Positions 5,042 to 14,059 of a stretch of 21,420 nucleotides of DNA are shown in pieces (the first letter of the stretch is position 1; each line of letters begins with the position of its first letter). This DNA comes from a virus. Below the pieces are notes generated by a model, which made no database searches, was not told where the DNA came from, and was given only the letters and a program-made list of their open reading frames with translations. A program made the translations under genes and the position numbers. The DNA lies in the IMG/VR virus record IMGVR_UViG_3300045738_001226, positions 1-21,420 of that record, one strand, 5' to 3'.

Positions 5042-5131
5042 GCGACCGATCCCCCCCTTTTGGTCGCTGTGGCTTTGCCGCCACCCCACCTTTCTGGGGG
5101 ATTGTCCTGTAACAACAGGGGATGATTCCCC
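5042..5131 (+). promoter_or_regulatory. Structured leader with successive hairpins before the first major tail gene
   Basis: The stretch holds several inverted repeats: GCGACC (5042-5047) with GGTCGC (5062-5067), GTGGC (5069-5073) with GCCAC (5080-5084), CCCCA (5084-5088) with TGGGG (5095-5099), CCTGT (5106-5110) with ACAGG (5115-5119), and GGGGA (5118-5122) with TCCCC (5127-5131). Some exclude each other. GGGGA at 5097-5101 can pair with TCCCC at 5127-5131 and enclose the CCTGT hairpin, instead of joining CCCCA. The last arm ends three bases before the ribosome site AGGAG (5134-5138). No U run follows a stem, so I do not call an intrinsic terminator. It may protect, process or regulate the tail tube message. 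Confidence 0.45.
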
Positions 5132-5145
5132 GTAGGAGATTTAAA

Positions 5146-5718
5146 ATGGCAGCAATAGCAGGTAGACTAGGAGAATTCTGGGCTGCAATCGACATCAACC
5201 TTGGCCCTCCAGTGGTTGTAAGTGATTGCCCCCAGCCGACTGGTGGTGTTCCAGCTTCAGATCCAGAAGCGCAGGCGACACCCGTAAACGGTAACTTTGG
5301 CATTATTCTGGAATCCTTGGTGGACACAACGCTTAATGGGAATGTGGACGAGCTAGAAACGACGGTTCACAATACAGGTGGGCAGTACACAGTTCCTCCC
5401 ATAACAGTTGACCACAATACGGCCAGGCAATACATTCCCAATTTCCATGATGAAACCCTGGATTTGACCTTGCGTTACGACGAAGAAGATCCCTGTCAGC
5501 GGAACCTTCTTTACGCGGCGATGGGTTCCAACCTGTTTTGGTATTGGTTCTTCCCTGATGGTCCTGGGTTCATGGGAGCTGTTCCAGCTTCGAATACGCG
5601 GGCATTCTTCGGCGCAGCATTTTCCACGAGCTTCAGTCCAGGGGCCCCGTTGGACGATGTGGCTACGCTTGATTTAACGCTTCGACTGAGTGGGACGATA
5701 ATGGAAGTGACTCCATGA
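5146..5718 (+). CDS. Major tail tube protein, first copy
   Basis: This protein has 190 residues. I chose ATG 5146, with AGGAG (5134-5138) seven bases upstream. An ATG at 5122 is in frame but lies within the hairpin region, and the start at 5146 aligns exactly with the paralogue downstream. The protein carries a major tail tube pattern: MAAIAGRLGEFWAAIDI at the N-terminus, then NGNVDELETTVH, then a segment with IPNFHDETLDLTLRYDEED that matches the strand-turn-strand typical of tail tube proteins (a His/Asp near the tip, then a long strand). It ends with a strand pair, DDVATLDLTLRLSG. It lies between the terminator-like gene and the tail assembly chaperone, as expected. It should form the stacked rings that line the tail channel. 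Confidence 0.85.
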   Translation: MAAIAGRLGEFWAAIDINLGPPVVVSDCPQPTGGVPASDPEAQATPVNGNFGIILESLVDTTLNGNVDELETTVHNTGGQYTVPPITVDHNTARQYIPNFHDETLDLTLRYDEEDPCQRNLLYAAMGSNLFWYWFFPDGPGFMGAVPASNTRAFFGAAFSTSFSPGAPLDDVATLDLTLRLSGTIMEVTP

Positions 5719-5773: not shown

Positions 5774-6352
5774 ATGACAGCAATAGCCGGAAGACTAGGG
5801 GAATTTTGGGCCGCAGTGGACGTTACGTTAGGCGTGGTGACGAATGTGGATCAGCCTACTGCCGATGGCGGCGGTCCAAGTATCCCAACCCCTGGCTCAG
5901 ACCCAGAAATAGTGATTGTTCCTGCTGGCGCAAACGCAGTTACAGGAATAATCCTTAGCTCGCTTGTTGACAGCACCTTTAACGGCAATGTCGATGAACT
6001 TGAAACGACCGTTCATAATACGGCAGGTACATACGCAGCAGTCACAGTTGACCACAGTACAGCAAGGACTTACATCCCTAACTTTCATGACGAAACGCTA
6101 GATTTGACCCTTCGTTATGATGAGGCAGATGTCTGCCAGCAGAATCTGCTTTACTGCTCCATGCAATCAAAACTGTTTTACTACTGGTTTGCCCCTGACG
6201 GTCCAGCGTTCTTTGGCGCTGGCTCAACAGGAGCCAGACAATTTAACGGTGCAGCCTTTGCAACCAGCTTTAGTCCTGGTAGTCCATTGGATGATGTTGC
6301 TACGTTAGATCTGACGCTGCGACTGAGCGGGTCGGTGATGGTTGTTCTTTAA
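5774..6352 (+). CDS. Major tail tube protein, second copy
   Basis: This protein has 192 residues, starting at ATG 5774 after ATAGGAGTAC. It is the paralogue of the preceding gene: MTAIAGRLGEFWAAVDV, NGNVDELETTVH, IPNFHDETLDLTLRYDEAD and DDVATLDLTLRLSG are shared or nearly so, while residues about 20-55 form a longer Pro/Gly/Asp-rich loop of different sequence. Both are complete, so both may enter the virion, for example as mixed rings or with one used as a minor or adhesive version. The variable loop is the likeliest place for a surface-exposed difference. The gap between the two copies (5719-5773) holds no other evident signal than the ribosome site. Confidence 0.85.
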   Translation: MTAIAGRLGEFWAAVDVTLGVVTNVDQPTADGGGPSIPTPGSDPEIVIVPAGANAVTGIILSSLVDSTFNGNVDELETTVHNTAGTYAAVTVDHSTARTYIPNFHDETLDLTLRYDEADVCQQNLLYCSMQSKLFYYWFAPDGPAFFGAGSTGARQFNGAAFATSFSPGSPLDDVATLDLTLRLSGSVMVVL

Positions 6353-6396: not shown

Positions 6397-6828
6397 ATGG
6401 TCAAAAATAAACAACGAGGTATCCTTAACATCTATCTGGGTGGGCATAATCGCACGTTGCGGTTTCGCTCACATGAGATTTGTATGCTTGAGGAAAGACT
6501 TGGCATGGGCATCAGCAAGATCTTATCAGAAGATCTGATTGGTATTCGTGTTCTGAGAGAAGCCATCCTTGTCGGTGTAATGCACGAATTTGCTGGCAAG
6601 AAAGGCAAAGAAGCCAAGCTGACCACAGTTAAGGTTTCTCGTTGGATTGATGATCACGGTGATTTCGCGGAGCTTTTAACTGCTGTCGTTGAGACGATTG
6701 CTATGGGTCTTCCAGGTGCTGAAGAGTTGATGGCTGAAGAAGAGACTGACGATGAAGAAGAAGGGGATGGTGAATCCAGCCCTTTCGTCGGGAGCCAGAC
6801 AACAAGCGTTTCGAGTTTGGCAAGCTAG
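6397..6828 (+). CDS. Tail assembly chaperone, short form (gpG-like)
   Basis: This 143-residue frame starts at ATG 6397 after AAAGGGAG (6384-6391). The protein resembles the GTA gp10/tail chaperone group: an N-terminal strand pair (GILNIYLGGHNRTLRFRS), then a helix containing MLEERLGMGI, and an all-helical remainder with LREAILVGVMHEF and WIDDHGDFAELLTAVVETIAMGL. A Glu/Asp-rich end (112-127) precedes the frameshift site at codons 129-130 (Pro-Phe). Without the shift the frame continues 13 more codons and stops at TAG 6826-6828. Tail assembly chaperones coat the tape measure protein while the tail tube polymerises and are absent from mature virions. Its place just before the tape measure gene agrees. 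Confidence 0.87.
   Translation: MVKNKQRGILNIYLGGHNRTLRFRSHEICMLEERLGMGISKILSEDLIGIRVLREAILVGVMHEFAGKKGKEAKLTTVKVSRWIDDHGDFAELLTAVVETIAMGLPGAEELMAEEETDDEEEGDGESSPFVGSQTTSVSSLAS
6780..6786 (+). other. Programmed -1 frameshift slippery site (CCCTTTC)
   Basis: The heptamer C CCT TTC lies in phase for a -1 slip: in frame zero the codons are CCT (Pro129) and TTC (Phe130), and after a one-base backward slip both tRNAs re-pair on CCC and TTT. The -1 frame is open from 6774 to the stop at 7298 and carries the conserved extension. An internal AAGGGGA (6761-6767) ends 12 bases upstream and could act like the Shine-Dalgarno stimulators seen at dnaX. A stem (6855-6862 with 6868-6875) lies further downstream. 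Confidence 0.85.
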
Positions 6829-7298
6829 TCCGTTCAGCAGCCGCAATTGGCATCACCCCAGATCAATTCTGGGGTAGACCCGATGACATTTTCACGGGGA
6901 TGACATTGCGTGAGTTTAAGATAATAGCAGAAGGCTACGAAGAACAATCCAGGCACGAGCTGGAGCGTATGGCGTGGGCTTGCGCCAATTTGATGAATTG
7001 CTGGACAAAGAAGAAAATAAAGCCAGCAGACCTACTTCCAAAAGGTAAATTCTTTAAAGGAGCTGCCAAGGCTCCGAGGATGTCTTCCTTTGAGCAGAAG
7101 ATGATAAGCAAAAAGAAAGACATGAAATCATTCCAGTCAATGATGCGTGGGATACAGGCAGACATCAATGAGAACAATCCAAGAATAGCAGAGGAGGAAG
7201 AAGAGTATATGGGGGAATCTGCGGTTGATTTGTCCTCGTACAGCGACAAGTACGATGAAGATATAGATGTTGATAAAGAGTTAGATTCTGAGGTTTAG
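6786..7298 (+). CDS. Tail assembly chaperone, frameshift extension (gpT-like)
   Basis: This is the second half of the long chaperone, read in the -1 frame after CCCTTTC at 6780-6786. It adds 170 residues, for a 300-residue fusion. The frame is closed by TGA at 6771-6773, just before the heptamer, so it cannot start much earlier. Its hallmark ITPDQFW...MTLREF...EGYEE begins before the first ATG (6900), which would cut through this block. That ATG also lacks a good ribosome site, so independent initiation is unlikely. The rest is helical and highly charged: RHELERMAWACANLMNCW (about 55-72 of the extension), a basic stretch with KGKFFKGAAKAP, and an acidic C-terminus ending at TAG two bases before the tape measure ATG. 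The extension of gpGT-type chaperones recruits tail tube protein to the tape measure complex. Confidence 0.85.
   Translation, partial: RREPDNKRFEFGKLVRSAAAIGITPDQFWGRPDDIFTGMTLREFKIIAEGYEEQSRHELERMAWACANLMNCWTKKKIKPADLLPKGKFFKGAAKAPRMSSFEQKMISKKKDMKSFQSMMRGIQADINENNPRIAEEEEEYMGESAVDLSSYSDKYDEDIDVDKELDSEV
6855..6875 (+). other. Stem-loop in the tail chaperone overlap
   Basis: Eight base pairs can form between ACCCCAGA (6855-6862) and TCTGGGGT (6868-6875) around a five-base loop. It lies 68 bases past the slippery heptamer, farther than usual for a -1 stimulator (5-9 bases), and inside coding sequence. No U run follows, so it is not a terminator. A role in frameshifting is possible only if intervening RNA folds to bring it closer. 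Confidence 0.35.
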
Positions 7299-7300
7299 GT

Positions 7301-10300
7301 ATGGGTGCCAACACAAAGACCGTGAAACTTAACGCCGACGTTGCCGAGTTCCTGAGAAACATGGGCAAGGTCAACAAGTCTCTTCTTCAGATGGGGAAGA
7401 AGCTCAGTGGTCTGGCCACACGTTTTGGCAAGATTGGCAAAGAGTTTGAGACGGCAGCAACCAAGATAAATAAAGCGTCTGGTTCATTCACCACAGCAGG
7501 GAAGAGAGCCTCCTCCGCCGCGAAAAAGATAGACAGAAGCGCAAAGAAGATACGCGCAGCAAATACAGCAATCAAGAATACAGGGACTGCCTTGAAGACG
7601 GCAGGGTCTCAGATGCTGAGATTCGGCGTCGTAATGGGAATCCCGGCTGCCGCCAGCATCAAGATGGCTGCAGACTTTGATTACTCGATGTCTCGCATAT
7701 CTGTCATCGCACGAGGGACAGCCAGAGGGGTAGACAAAGACTACCGGTCGATGAGTAAGGCAGCGTTAGATCTTGCCAACAAAACAGAACATACAGCCAG
7801 CCAGGTGGCTCAGGGTATGCAGTTCATGGCAATGGCCGGGTTCAAGGCTACCCAGATCATTGGCGCGATGCCTGCTGTGGCAAAGATAGCCACTGCCGGG
7901 AATCTTAGCATGGCAGACGCTGCCAATATCACCACCAATATCATGGCAGGGTATGGAATAACTCTTTCCAATGTAGCGAAAGAGATCAATGCAAACATTG
8001 GAACAACGAAGGGGTTGACTGCCGCCCAGGATGAACTGAGAAGCAAGCTGGGGGAGACAGCAAACATACTTGTAGGTACGTTTACAAATGCGAACGTAAG
8101 CCTGCTTGAGATGGGGGAAGCGTTTAAGCTCGCTGGCTCCAACGCAAAACTTCTTAATATGCCGATGGAAGATCTGTTCGCCATGATAGGTCTCCTCGGA
8201 AATATCGGTGTGAAAGGTACTGAGGCAGGCACAGCCTTGAAGAGATCTTTTTTCGCCATGCTGGACCCAACAGAAAAAGCCAAGGCAGCGATGAAGAGGC
8301 TTGGCATTGCTGCCGAGGATTTGTCTGGCAAGGGAAAATCAATGACCCTCATAGCGAAGCTAGAGGGTGCGAAGAAGGGGTACGAGGCTCTCCGCAGGGA
8401 ATTGGAGTTTGTCACCGACATGGCGATTGTGTTTGGTGAACGTGCTGGGCCAAAAATGGCCGCTGTTGTTGCTCAGGGTACAGCAGAATTCGTCAAGCTA
8501 AGAAGAGCAATTGAAATGGCAAAGATGGAGGGTCTTGCCGACGTGATAGAGACCCGCCAGTTGAGGACAACGAAGGGTGCGATAAAGGTTCTTATTAGCA
8601 ATATCCAGTCTCTCGGGATTGCCCTTGGTAAGTTTCTTTTGCCTGCGATTAAGGCTGTCACCGTATGGTTCACTGAGCTAACGAAAACTTTCAATGAGGC
8701 ATCCCCTCAGATGAAAAAGTTTATCTCTGAGGCTATGCTTATAGCCCCTGCGATGATCTTAGGCGTTGGCGGCGTAGCAAGGGCCTCGGGTGGACTTTTA
8801 GATCTAGTCGGAAGCCTGGGGTTCGCCGCCTGGGGGCTTGCACGTCTCAAGAAAAATACAGGGGTAATGCAGACCCTGGGGAAATTGAAATTCACTGGAT
8901 TGCGCAAGGGGATAAGCGGGGTCGGGACTACGCTGGCGAGCGTATATATGGGAACCACTGCGGCTTCTTCTGCGTGGACTGCTTTTGGCTCAAAGGTAAG
9001 CGGTGCCGCGTCCAGCATGAAGACGAGCATTGGAGGGCTGATTGGAAGGGTTCTGGACCTTGGAACTCGTCTCCTGTGGGCCGGGGGAACCATCGCGGCA
9101 TTAAAAGCTGCCGCCGTCGGGGGCGTTGTCTTTACCGTGACAACGGCAGCGATGGACCCAGAGGCATTCTTCAAGAAGGATAGCTTCAGCAAGATAAAAG
9201 ACAATATCACAAGCTCCCTTTCAGACACATTTGACCTTCTGACTAAGAGCTGGAGACATGCCGTTTCTGGCTTTGTGGACTGGATGGCCTCAATCTCGGT
9301 GGGGCTTGCAGATCTTTTCTCTGGAGCAGGAATGTCCAGCCTGGGGCATGAGCGGTTAAAGGAAGCCACTGCCGCCACCCGTAAGTGGGCCGATCTGAGC
9401 GTTGACGAAGCTGCCAGGGTAGAGAAATCATGGCAGTCTGTCAACGCTGCGCAGGGCGGGCTTGGGAGTCAAGCGAAGAGTCGCCCCGTATTTGCTGCCG
9501 CCATGAAGGAAGAGGGTTTATCCCCTACTGGATCGCCCAAGGAGCTTCAAGGTCTAATAAAGGCCACAAATGAACACGGCAAGCTACTCAAGGTGTGGGG
9601 GGACCGCATAGACGCAATCCGGCGCGTAGAAGAATTTGCTGGCAAGAAGGGAGATGCCTACAACGAAGCCAAGGCTGCACTGGGAAACCTAGATGCAGAG
9701 TCAATCAGGGATTTGGACCAGGAGTTTATGAAGTATGTCAAGGTGCAAAGTGCGGCGCTTTCGGCAAACGAGAAGCAGATAGACACGGCTCAAGATACAA
9801 ACAAGCAGTTGCTCGACTTGACACAGGCACTGAAGAATGTCCGCGACAGTGGGATGATGGCCGCAAGAGGATACGACAAAAGCGGCAAGGTGGTTGATAA
9901 GAAAATAATGAATCCAGAAATCCGAGCCGGGTTAATGGAACTACTCGAGGGGCAGGGCGTTGATGTCACAAAGGTACCCTATGCCAAGGGGAAGGTCGTA
10001 ATTGACGATGCGTCGCTGGCAAAACTTGCGCAGACGATGATCGAAGCCAACGGCCAGATGCTCAAAAGAGCAGCCAAGGTGACCCCTGCCTTGGCTGGGA
10101 AGGCGGATACCCAGGCCGCGCAAAATCAAGCACAATTTAATGAGATTTTAGAGCTATATAAGAAAAGTGTTGGGGATGACACGGCGAAAAGACTCAGGAT
10201 AAAACTCCTCAAGAAAGAACAAAAGAATGCCCTGAAGCTATGGAAAGACTTCTTTGCAAAACTGAAGTTTACCAAGTTTTTTAAAGAAGCGAACCGAATG

Positions 10301-13300
10301 GCACCAGAGTTTTCCAAGGTGACAGGAGGGGTCCAAGAATTCTTTAAGACGCTGAAGGATATCAACACTCGCATCAAGTCCGTCATAGACACCAAGTCAA
10401 TGAAAAGGGGAGACCCTAGAATAAAAGCTGATGTTGATCCTGCCGTCCAGGGAGCGATAAGGGAACTTGAGGGTCTCACCGCCCAGTTTATTGCAAGCAA
10501 ACATGGAACAGAGCAATACGCTTTCTTTATGGAGAGTGCAGGGAGACATGCCCAAGATACAATAGGCAGCGTCCTCGAAGCCTTCCCTGAATTTAAAGAA
10601 CAGTTTGGAGATTTGATAAACGTCACGGGAGATCTAAGCGAAGCGCTGGCATTAAGCAAGGACAGGATACAGGACATAGCGCAAGAATTGGCAGGGATAC
10701 AGATCCTGAAGGGTCTATCTGCCAAGATCAAGGGGCTGAGAGAGGAAAAAGAGCAGGCAGAGGAGATAGAAAAAGAGTCTCGAAGGAGTGTCGAGGACAA
10801 ATTTGTTGAGCGAATAATACCTGGGTCGCTGGAGGGTATGGACATTGCCGAGGAGTCGGTGGAAAAACTGATCACTTTCCTGGGAAAGGCAGAAAAAGCT
10901 ACCGAGGATCTGCCAGGAGTGCTGGAAAATATCTGGGAGAAGTATGCCTTAGATGAAGTGAAGGTGGCTGGCGAGACACTGCCAACGAGCCGATTCACAG
11001 GCCCTGACACTATTCCCCCTGGGGAAGTAGCCGCGTTCCTAGAAGCCTTGAGGAAAGCCATCCCAGCCCAAGCGATGTTGTCGAAGGGAACCGTCACGGA
11101 GATGCCCGAGGGAGGGGGAGTGTTTGGCTCTGAGACGACGAAAGACATGGCCGCCCTTGCCGAAATGGCAGCCACCTTTAGGGAGGCCGGGAAGGTCCAA
11201 TACGCAACAGCGAAAGCCGGAGAGGCCGCCGCCCAGGCACTAGGCAAAATAGAGACAGGTGGAGATGGTGTTTACGCTTCGACTCAGGATCTAACCACGG
11301 CCTTCGGCATCCTGCGGGGTCGATTGAGCAAGTTAGGTGAAGAACTTGACGACTTGGCCCCCTCGGCGCAGACAGGGATGCGTAAAAATTTAACAAACAT
11401 TGAGGAGACCCTCGATAAACAAGAGAAGGAAGCGAAAAAAGACACCTACCAGGAGTCATACGGAACAGTCGATATGCTGGGGGGGGATGAGAACAGGACG
11501 AAGATCAAGGCTGGACTTTTTGATTTCGTCGATGGCGTATTTGGAGGTGCCACCGAAAGTGCAAAATCCAAAGTCGTAAATTCGGTGGTGGGTGGCTTTG
11601 ACGGCATGATGAGTTCCCTGCAGACAGGGTGGATATCGAGCCTTGGTGGGATGATTGGTCAGTTGGCAGGGAGTACACTGGGAAAGAGTATTGGTGGTGA
11701 CATATGGGGTGGATTCGCAGGGACGGCAGTTGGGAAAATAGTAGAAATGATCCCCAATATGCTACTTGGCCCCTTCAAAATCGTTGGTGATGCCTTTAAG
11801 TGGATGGCCGGGAAACTCAGAGAAGTCGGTGAGTTTGTCCTGAACTCTCTGTTGAAATTTGGGAAAGACCTCAAATCCGCCATCACAGGAATCGGAGACT
11901 TATTCCCAGAGGAACGCGCAGGCAGCGCATTCAAGGGGACAGTGGAACAAATGACCCCAGGTGGAGGCGTATTCGGGATGCAGTCTGCCTTGGGGATTAC
12001 GATAGCAGCCTTTGCCACGCTAAACGCTGCCCTTGGTGCTGCCGCTGCGGCATTCATTATACTGCAGCCTATCCTTGCCGTTAATACCCCCCTCCTTATG
12101 TTTCTTGGGGTAGGGCTTCTCGTGGTGAATTCTGGCCTCCTTGGAATGGCGGGAGGTCTGGCGGCAGTCATCGCCGTACTCTCTGCTGTCATTGGCGTTA
12201 TCTTCTTCGTGGTGGGGGGTATTTTTTATGCTATAGTAAATGCCATTGCGCTAGTGGTGGGAGTAATTCTGACAGTGGTAGCCGTCGTCGCCGTCCTGGC
12301 CACCGCCCTGTACACAGTAAGCGCCATTCTTGTCACCGCCTTCGCCATTCTGGCGATTGCGGCACAGGTCGCCGCCACGATAATCTCCATATCGTTTGAT
12401 ATTGCAGCGGTTTCGATACTGGGAGCTGCCGCAACCATAGTGGCCGCACTGGTGTTTGCGGCAGCGGCAATCATGTCCTTTGGTGGCAGCATTATACCCA
12501 TGCTGGCGTTTGCGCTTGTTCATGTCATTATACCCCTGGGGTTGGCACTCGCGGCAGGGGTGGTTATGCTATTCGCCGGACTAGCGGCCATATTAGGCAC
12601 GTTGTTTGTTGCGCTTATCCCGGTTGCCATAGCGGGTCTCACTCTTTTCATCCTTGCAATTGTTGGTGCTGCGATGATTTTCGTTGCGGCCATAGGTTCA
12701 GCAGTTGGGGCCATAGCCGCTGCCTTGACACTTGGTCTTTCTGGCCTTTTGACAATGTTCACCTTCCTTGCATTTAAGGATGTTGAAGGTCCATACGTTG
12801 ATGAAGAAGGAAACGTACAAGAAGAGTACAAGTCGAAGCGGGAAGACGTATTCGCCGCGTTCGAGGGGGCATTAGATCCCCTTATCATTGCCCTTGACCA
12901 GCTATGGGCAGGCGTAATGCCGCTCGCAGGGCTTTTTGCCACAGTCGTCAAGGTTATGATCCCGATGGCCAAAGGGTTCTCAAACACAGAAGGTATTTCA
13001 CGTAAGCTATTTTACGCCCTAAAAGCCGTCGCAGTTGGCTTTGCGATTACGCTTCTTGCCCTTGGGTATTTCGCCACAGGGGTTCTGGAAACCATTGCCT
13101 GGATGCTGGAAAATGTTCCTGCCGGTATAACTACTTTCATGGACCAATTCGGGAAGGCGTTGCTTGGAGGGCTTGCTTGGGTACTCAGGGGGTTTGCCCA
13201 ATTTGCCAAGTCACTGGGGATGAACGAGGCAGCGATAATCAAGGTTGCCGATGGCCTTGATGAGTTTGCCCTAGAGCCTGCGTCTGATACCCTTCAAGAT

Positions 13301-14059
13301 CTCGCAGATGCGGCAAGGGCCATGAAACCAGATCTCGGGGCGATGGCCCTCGCGATACAAGAACTTATGGACCTCACGTATGAAGAGGCTATGGCGATTG
13401 CAGAGGAAATTGCCGCCAGAAAGGGTCTGGACCTCAAGGAATTCAATGAGTCTCTGACCAACATTCCAGAGGGATACAAGGTAAGCCTCGCTCGGTATTT
13501 GAGCATGGACGAGGAAAACCCAATGGCAGTCGCAGGCGTTTCGAGGAACAACGACACCCTTGCCGAGATGAATCCAGATGACTACTTCAACCGTCTTGGA
13601 CAGTCCTGGGGTGGGGCATTTGGGGATGCCTATAGTTTCATTGGGCAGTTGGAGAATGAGATCGCAAAACTTGCCGAGGCTATAAATCCATCCGAGTGGG
13701 CAGACCTCTTTGGTGGATCACTTGAGGAGGCTTTTTCGAGGTCGCTTGAGGGGCTGGATGAGCTTTTTGCCGAGACTGCTGAATGGGTGGTGAATACCGT
13801 AATGCCAGGGGATGACGCATTCAACCTTGGAGAGAAGGGGTTAGAAGCAGGTCTTGGCGCAGGGGGCGTGATGGGTGGCGAAAAGAGTGGCAATATTACG
13901 AATATCTATGTAAATGATATGAACATCAACGATGTGGATGATGCCACGAACTTCGGTCAAAGGGTCATGGAGCAGTCAGAGGTGCGTTCTATGCAGCAAA
14001 CCGGAAACCCTTACGCAGGTGGAAACCTACGTGGATCTGAATGGGGGGGAGGACATTGA
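7301..14059 (+). CDS. Tail tape measure protein, very long
   Basis: At 2252 residues it sets tail length and is ejected ahead of the DNA. Start ATG 7301 is two bases after the chaperone stop. Residues 1-100 are basic and coiled-coil-like. Residues about 105-330 match the phage tail tape measure (TP901) core: SQMLRFGVVMGIPAAASIK, then FDYSMSRISVIARG, HTASQVAQGMQFMAMAGF, MADAANITTNIMAGYG, MGEAFKLAGSNAKLLNMP and GIKGTEAGTALK-like turns. A long charged helical section (about 650-1400) includes repeated Lys/Glu stretches. Residues 1562-1825 are an almost uncharged hydrophobic tract, see findings. Residues after 1840 are amphipathic and end with GNITNIYVNDMNIND, as in many tape measure proteins. 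A short motif GTVxxMxxGGGVFG occurs at 1263-1276 and 1546-1559. No peptidase or lytic transglycosylase motif was seen. Confidence 0.93.
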   Translation: MGANTKTVKLNADVAEFLRNMGKVNKSLLQMGKKLSGLATRFGKIGKEFETAATKINKASGSFTTAGKRASSAAKKIDRSAKKIRAANTAIKNTGTALKTAGSQMLRFGVVMGIPAAASIKMAADFDYSMSRISVIARGTARGVDKDYRSMSKAALDLANKTEHTASQVAQGMQFMAMAGFKATQIIGAMPAVAKIATAGNLSMADAANITTNIMAGYGITLSNVAKEINANIGTTKGLTAAQDELRSKLGETANILVGTFTNANVSLLEMGEAFKLAGSNAKLLNMPMEDLFAMIGLLGNIGVKGTEAGTALKRSFFAMLDPTEKAKAAMKRLGIAAEDLSGKGKSMTLIAKLEGAKKGYEALRRELEFVTDMAIVFGERAGPKMAAVVAQGTAEFVKLRRAIEMAKMEGLADVIETRQLRTTKGAIKVLISNIQSLGIALGKFLLPAIKAVTVWFTELTKTFNEASPQMKKFISEAMLIAPAMILGVGGVARASGGLLDLVGSLGFAAWGLARLKKNTGVMQTLGKLKFTGLRKGISGVGTTLASVYMGTTAASSAWTAFGSKVSGAASSMKTSIGGLIGRVLDLGTRLLWAGGTIAALKAAAVGGVVFTVTTAAMDPEAFFKKDSFSKIKDNITSSLSDTFDLLTKSWRHAVSGFVDWMASISVGLADLFSGAGMSSLGHERLKEATAATRKWADLSVDEAARVEKSWQSVNAAQGGLGSQAKSRPVFAAAMKEEGLSPTGSPKELQGLIKATNEHGKLLKVWGDRIDAIRRVEEFAGKKGDAYNEAKAALGNLDAESIRDLDQEFMKYVKVQSAALSANEKQIDTAQDTNKQLLDLTQALKNVRDSGMMAARGYDKSGKVVDKKIMNPEIRAGLMELLEGQGVDVTKVPYAKGKVVIDDASLAKLAQTMIEANGQMLKRAAKVTPALAGKADTQAAQNQAQFNEILELYKKSVGDDTAKRLRIKLLKKEQKNALKLWKDFFAKLKFTKFFKEANRMAPEFSKVTGGVQEFFKTLKDINTRIKSVIDTKSMKRGDPRIKADVDPAVQGAIRELEGLTAQFIASKHGTEQYAFFMESAGRHAQDTIGSVLEAFPEFKEQFGDLINVTGDLSEALALSKDRIQDIAQELAGIQILKGLSAKIKGLREEKEQAEEIEKESRRSVEDKFVERIIPGSLEGMDIAEESVEKLITFLGKAEKATEDLPGVLENIWEKYALDEVKVAGETLPTSRFTGPDTIPPGEVAAFLEALRKAIPAQAMLSKGTVTEMPEGGGVFGSETTKDMAALAEMAATFREAGKVQYATAKAGEAAAQALGKIETGGDGVYASTQDLTTAFGILRGRLSKLGEELDDLAPSAQTGMRKNLTNIEETLDKQEKEAKKDTYQESYGTVDMLGGDENRTKIKAGLFDFVDGVFGGATESAKSKVVNSVVGGFDGMMSSLQTGWISSLGGMIGQLAGSTLGKSIGGDIWGGFAGTAVGKIVEMIPNMLLGPFKIVGDAFKWMAGKLREVGEFVLNSLLKFGKDLKSAITGIGDLFPEERAGSAFKGTVEQMTPGGGVFGMQSALGITIAAFATLNAALGAAAAAFIILQPILAVNTPLLMFLGVGLLVVNSGLLGMAGGLAAVIAVLSAVIGVIFFVVGGIFYAIVNAIALVVGVILTVVAVVAVLATALYTVSAILVTAFAILAIAAQVAATIISISFDIAAVSILGAAATIVAALVFAAAAIMSFGGSIIPMLAFALVHVIIPLGLALAAGVVMLFAGLAAILGTLFVALIPVAIAGLTLFILAIVGAAMIFVAAIGSAVGAIAAALTLGLSGLLTMFTFLAFKDVEGPYVDEEGNVQEEYKSKREDVFAAFEGALDPLIIALDQLWAGVMPLAGLFATVVKVMIPMAKGFSNTEGISRKLFYALKAVAVGFAITLLALGYFATGVLETIAWMLENVPAGITTFMDQFGKALLGGLAWVLRGFAQFAKSLGMNEAAIIKVADGLDEFALEPASDTLQDLADAARAMKPDLGAMALAIQELMDLTYEEAMAIAEEIAARKGLDLKEFNESLTNIPEGYKVSLARYLSMDEENPMAVAGVSRNNDTLAEMNPDDYFNRLGQSWGGAFGDAYSFIGQLENEIAKLAEAINPSEWADLFGGSLEEAFSRSLEGLDELFAETAEWVVNTVMPGDDAFNLGEKGLEAGLGAGGVMGGEKSGNITNIYVNDMNINDVDDATNFGQRVMEQSEVRSMQQTGNPYAGGNLRGSEWGGGH

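Follow-up and report, generated by a model that had tools for sequence, protein, structure and literature searches.

A candidate lambda G/GT-type -1 ribosomal frameshift at C CCT TTC in the tail chaperone locus of an IMG/VR virus

The locus that precedes the tape measure gene in IMG/VR virus record IMGVR_UViG_3300045738_001226 raises the question of whether its two overlapping reading frames, G and T, are expressed as separate proteins or are joined by a change of frame during translation. Positions 1 to 21,420 of the record, a stretch of 21,420 bases hereafter called the window, were analysed together with related loci, and the features concerned are listed in Table 1. The comparisons point to a programmed -1 ribosomal frameshift like that of lambda G/GT, located at the heptamer C CCT TTC and giving a G-T fusion protein, and a probability of about 95% is assigned to this reading. 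The same frameshift, leading to a G-T chaperone fusion, had been the central proposal of a preliminary description made from the letters of the window, and it is strengthened here by the conservation of the heptamer and its phase and by the lack of a conserved T start in 11 further distinct loci. The event would be an ordinary kind of frameshift at an uncommon heptamer, well supported by solid comparative evidence from the sequences.

Table 1. Coordinates of the features of the G/T locus and its neighbours in the window.
Feature	Position	Strand	Basis or remark
Two tandem major-tail-protein-like genes	5122-5718, 5774-6352	+	phrog_158 and phrog_1407 (major tail protein), weak (E 0.0007)
gpG-like tail assembly chaperone (G)	6397..6828	+	zero frame, 143 aa, ATG start; ORF, phrog_2115, Phage_TAC_11
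AAGGGGA, internal SD-like segment	6761..6767	+	12 nt upstream of heptamer; role possible, not supported
T frame (-1)	6774..7298	+	opens after TGA 6771-6773, ends at TAG 7296-7298
Slippery heptamer C CCT TTC	6780..6786	+	candidate -1 tandem slip to CCC TTT; phase, conservation in 12/12 distinct loci
8-bp stem-loop ACCCCAGA/TCTGGGGT	6855-6862/6868-6875	+	-14.4 kcal/mol; lineage-specific, role doubtful
Tape measure protein, next gene	7301..14059	+	phrog_1533 (tape measure) 4e-79; PhageMin_Tail 7e-33

Reading frames and gene neighbourhood

The G frame is read around the heptamer as GAA TCC AGC CCT TTC GTC, so that the heptamer is divided as C CCT TTC and both tRNAs are in the phase required for a shift by one base and renewed pairing on CCC TTT. 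An in-phase X XXY YYZ motif is thereby found near the 3' end of G, as in lambda-type G/GT pairs, and the preliminary description was correct both in stating that the heptamer lies in phase for a -1 slip and in stating that the -1 frame opens just 5' of it. An SD-like AAAGGGAGT was observed 4 nt 5' of the G ATG. Under the proposed mechanism most ribosomes would translate G to its stop at 6828. In a minority, the tRNA-Pro paired with CCT and the tRNA-Phe paired with TTC would shift back by one base, to CCC TTT, and translation would then proceed in the T frame as far as 7298. Reading after the slip would resume at 6786 (CGT) and cover 170 residues before the TAG, and the predicted fusion would comprise 130 residues of G and 170 residues of T (300 aa). 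The T frame ends two bases short of the tape measure gene, the ATG of which is at 7301. In-phase XXXYYYZ motifs occur at 30 of the 6,571 codons of the window's listed genes (0.46%), and the chance of such a motif falling somewhere within the 55-base overlap of G and T is about 8%, so that the heptamer in the window alone is suggestive only and its significance derives from its conservation in relatives.

The locus belongs to a head and tail gene run on the + strand, which includes an HK97-type capsid, connectors, two tail-tube-like genes, G, T and the tape measure gene, and the G/T pair is located, as in lambda-type systems, between the major tail protein genes (a weak assignment) and the tape measure gene. 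The two tandem tail-tube-like genes are 66% identical to each other, and a similar tandem pair was observed in relative L006 (1460-1987, 2008-2604). The tape measure protein is very long (2,252 aa); by the rule of about 1.5 angstrom of tail per tape measure residue, a tail of ~340 nm would be expected.

Profile matches place G in the tail assembly chaperone family across the members compared. All eight members matched phrog_2115 (tail protein), with 3e-10 for the window, and all eight likewise matched Pfam Phage_TAC_11 (PF11836; best 3.9e-6), the window G alone scoring E 0.0025 and 18.3 bits, under the curated cut-off of 27.8; two of the eight also matched phrog_183 (tail chaperone protein; best 1.5e-4). 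For T, all nine members matched phrog_7377, the PHROG matches of T in all members being of unknown function, and three of the nine reached Phage_tail_T and Phage_TAC_6 (PF09550), at an E of only ~0.011. The structure model of G had a low pLDDT (64) and its comparison with the PDB gave no match at E < 0.001, the AlphaFold model of T (pLDDT 51) was too poor for use, and only chance matches came from searching PDB sequences with a profile. The roles of the lambda proteins suggest by analogy that the G part may bind the tape measure protein, the expected client of the chaperone, and the T part may recruit tail-tube subunits.

Conservation of the heptamer and of the T frame

Relatives were taken from scans of IMG/VR, which gave L002 and L003, then L006 and L009-L018, and then L024, L025 and L026; after identical copies had been removed, 11 distinct relatives in six further lineages were retained, making 12 distinct loci with the window. 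Their T parts are 27–71% identical to that of the window (71% for L002 and 66% for L003, by alignment). An in-phase C CCT TTN is present in 12/12 of these loci. The last base of the heptamer is C in eight of the relatives (L002, L003, L009, L010, L012, L013, L015 and L024), G in two (L006 and L026) and A in one (L025), and with G or A the zero-frame Phe is replaced by Leu. The zero-frame Pro follows a Ser, Ala, Asn, Asp or Leu whose codon ends in C in every case. Six bases are thus fixed, the seventh is free and the residue preceding Pro varies, indicating that the nucleotides are held rather than the peptide, which is the signature of tandem slippage on X XXY YYZ. The preliminary description had proposed the conservation of the heptamer in related phages as a check and a conserved start codon in its place as contrary evidence; the heptamer was found in all 11 relatives examined, and the T start codons were not conserved among them.

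The constraint on the site is also observed at the level of codon choice. A comparison of the eight distinct loci in which the aligned G is intact showed CCCTTTC to be the longest stretch of invariant DNA in this gene. A single codon is used throughout in just 5 of the 54 invariant amino-acid columns of G, and the CCT and TTC of the heptamer account for two of these five. Given the zero-frame amino acids, the per-lineage chances of CCCTTT were 0.112, 0.026, 0.152, 0.148, 0.107, 0.010 and 0.037, the product of which is ~3e-9 when the seven lineages are taken as independent, a figure inflated by their relatedness; synonymous sites between the lineages are saturated or almost so. The stop codon of G lies 24 to 75 nt 3' of the heptamer across the 12 distinct loci. 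In L006 (2641-2977) the G frame is disrupted 5' of the heptamer, with ~43 residues missing and the frame changed, reflecting either a damaged gene or an assembly error, and this locus is therefore weaker evidence.

Some loci display additional motifs around the site. In L009, L010 and L012 the site is extended by 3 nt upstream to AAACCCTTTC, with overlapping in-phase AAACCCT and CCCTTTC, and in L025 (2965-2983) an extra in-phase GGGAAAC precedes CCCTTTA by 12 nt, giving two candidate slip sites. Searches with tblastn of G, T and the T of L006 against 50,697 phage records gave no match, and neither did a search of GTDB genome contigs with two T profiles.

The conservation of the T frame starts at the heptamer, 38 codons before the first ATG of the window (6900). 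Over the 24 codons that separate the stop of G from ATG 6900, a dN of 0.12 and a dS of 1.8 (dN/dS ~0.07) were obtained between the window and L002, and codon divergence of this kind indicates that T is under purifying selection before its first ATG. T is consequently a conserved and open -1 extension lacking a start codon of its own. Counted from the heptamer, the first T-frame ATG, GTG or TTG occurs at +45 to +147, its position and kind varying among relatives, which argues against separate initiation of T. According to the preliminary description a conserved MTLREF block begins before any start codon; the Met of MTLREF proved to be the first ATG (6900) itself, whereas the block RREP...FWGRPDD does precede every T-frame ATG, GTG and TTG, so that the argument on the T start rests on RREP...FWGRPDD and not on MTLREF. 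Automatic gene callers would report G and T as two genes and wrongly start T at ATG 6900, with the loss of 38 conserved codons.

Alternative explanations and candidate stimulators

Production of T as a separate protein from its own start codon, either ATG 6900 or a non-standard one, could draw on the 132-aa ORF that ATG 6900 opens in the T frame and on an equally distant ATG in L002. However, GGGG directly abuts ATG 6900 with no SD at a workable spacing, the coding conservation begins well upstream and the first start codons are unconserved among relatives, as described above, and the conservation of the heptamer would be left unexplained, all of which makes a separate start very improbable. 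A sequencing or assembly error that splits one continuous gene would be conceivable for the window, which is a single metagenome-derived record, but its probability is reduced to a negligible level by the recurrence of the same frame relation across the 12 distinct loci, which stem from many independent records. Transcriptional slippage requires long runs of A or T, whereas no run in the site exceeds three bases and what is conserved is the X XXY YYZ pattern of tandem codons. Although slippage of this type is known generally in phages and bacteria (PMC5009743), a frame change by this route is considered extremely improbable here. An independent T start, a sequencing error and transcriptional slippage were all rejected.

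It is also conceivable that a genuine frameshift is driven chiefly by the internal Shine-Dalgarno segment, as the preliminary description had suggested it might be, or by the 6855-6875 stem; both elements exist as it described them, AAGGGGA lying 12 nt 5' of the heptamer and the 8-bp stem 68 bases 3' of it, and GAGGG is placed at the same upstream distance in L009-L012. The duplex energy of AAGGGGA (-7.9) compares with a mean of -9.3 when the acidic codons of this segment are shuffled synonymously (P 0.77), the strength of the segment is that expected by chance from acidic codons in every lineage tested, and in L006, L013 and L015 it is either weak or lacking, which goes against the internal SD as the main stimulator. 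The stem is stronger than expected from synonymous shuffling in the window (P 0.002) and in L015 (P 0.013) and marginally so in L006 and L013, but it is not present as such in L002 and L003 (P 0.36) or in L009-L012 (P 0.94), these P values being uncorrected for nine loci. Where it does occur, its distance from the heptamer is 68-74 nt, compared with the 5-9 nt that usually separate slip site and stem (PMC7618472), and an RNAalifold consensus of the 132-column region showed little covariation (-0.81 kcal/mol). The 105 nt after the heptamer are more stable than shuffles in the window and in L015 (0 of 400 in both), with a less clear or absent signal elsewhere, and a larger lineage-specific fold is therefore possible. 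Dependence on the internal SD or the stem thus appears unlikely, with a distinctly higher probability than the alternatives rejected above.

Compared with a dnaX-like cassette, the loci examined have neither a conserved SD 10-14 nt upstream nor a stable stem 5-9 nt downstream, the nearest clear stem being 68-74 nt away, and no conserved stimulator (SD or nearby stem) was found among them. With C CCU UUN kept throughout these uncultivated phages, the G:GT ratio may be set by the heptamer itself, through re-pairing of tRNA-Pro and tRNA-Phe, or by a lineage-specific long-range fold, a proposal to which roughly even odds are given. The family, in which the heptamer is held constant except for a free last base, offers a clean natural series in which to ask what a bacterial -1 site requires in the absence of a conserved stimulator.

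Comparison with known frameshift systems

The primary surveys of tail-chaperone frameshifts are reportedly those of Xu et al. in 2004 and 2013. In the literature search, CCCTTTC was not found named as a tail-chaperone slip site, the survey table of Xu et al. 2004 lying outside the comparison; CCCTTTC combined with frameshift gave no match, CCCTTT gave incidental matches only among those checked, and CCCUUUC combined with frameshifting led to work on a fungal RNA virus and on SARS-CoV-2, neither concerned with tail chaperones as judged from title and abstract.

In five phages with similar tape measure proteins, the in-phase sites include GGGAAAG, TTTTTTC, TTTTTTA and, in Microcystis phage Mae-JY30 (PP438422; L019:2728-2934), CCCTTTG. 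In Mae-JY30 the gene preceding the tape measure gene carries this heptamer 28 nt short of its stop codon, and the -1 frame is open for 65 codons, to just before the tape measure gene, representing an unannotated candidate frameshift; unlike the window, this phage has a gene order of the contractile-tail type that includes a tail tube gene, and it has no detectable homology to G or T. No relative of it was found for comparison. The GTA gp10 family resembles the present one in the PF11836 matches of G and the marginal PF09550 matches of T given above, and differs in that the window G stays below the curated cut-off. The SPP1 pair gp17.5/gp17.5*, with a putative -1 site UUUUUUC, is likewise a tail chaperone pair with a -1 slip in which the A-site pairing moves from UUC to UUU (PMC6316719), whereas its P-site codon is TTT in place of CCT, and a search of the phage collection revealed no sequence relationship to it.

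In lambda, gpG and gpGT are produced by low-level -1 frameshifting, which is conserved in many long-tailed phages (PMC5009743), and the window shares with it the chaperone gene 5' of the tape measure gene, the in-phase tandem slip motif near the 3' end of G and the T part in the -1 frame (PMC5009743). The two differ in the heptamer (G GGA AAG in lambda, C CCT TTC here), in the TAC_11-like G and in the T part, which is longer here and marginally similar to Phage_tail_T. Two HK97-like chaperone genes gave 6-7% frameshifting in reporters (PMC3711429), and in the annotated chaperone frameshifts with the X XXY YYZ motif surveyed for PRFect, all four nucleotides occur at each of the X, Y and Z positions (PMC10885494), so that C CCT TTC fits the known class. 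C CCU UUN would accordingly join the tail-chaperone slip sites that are backed by comparative evidence.
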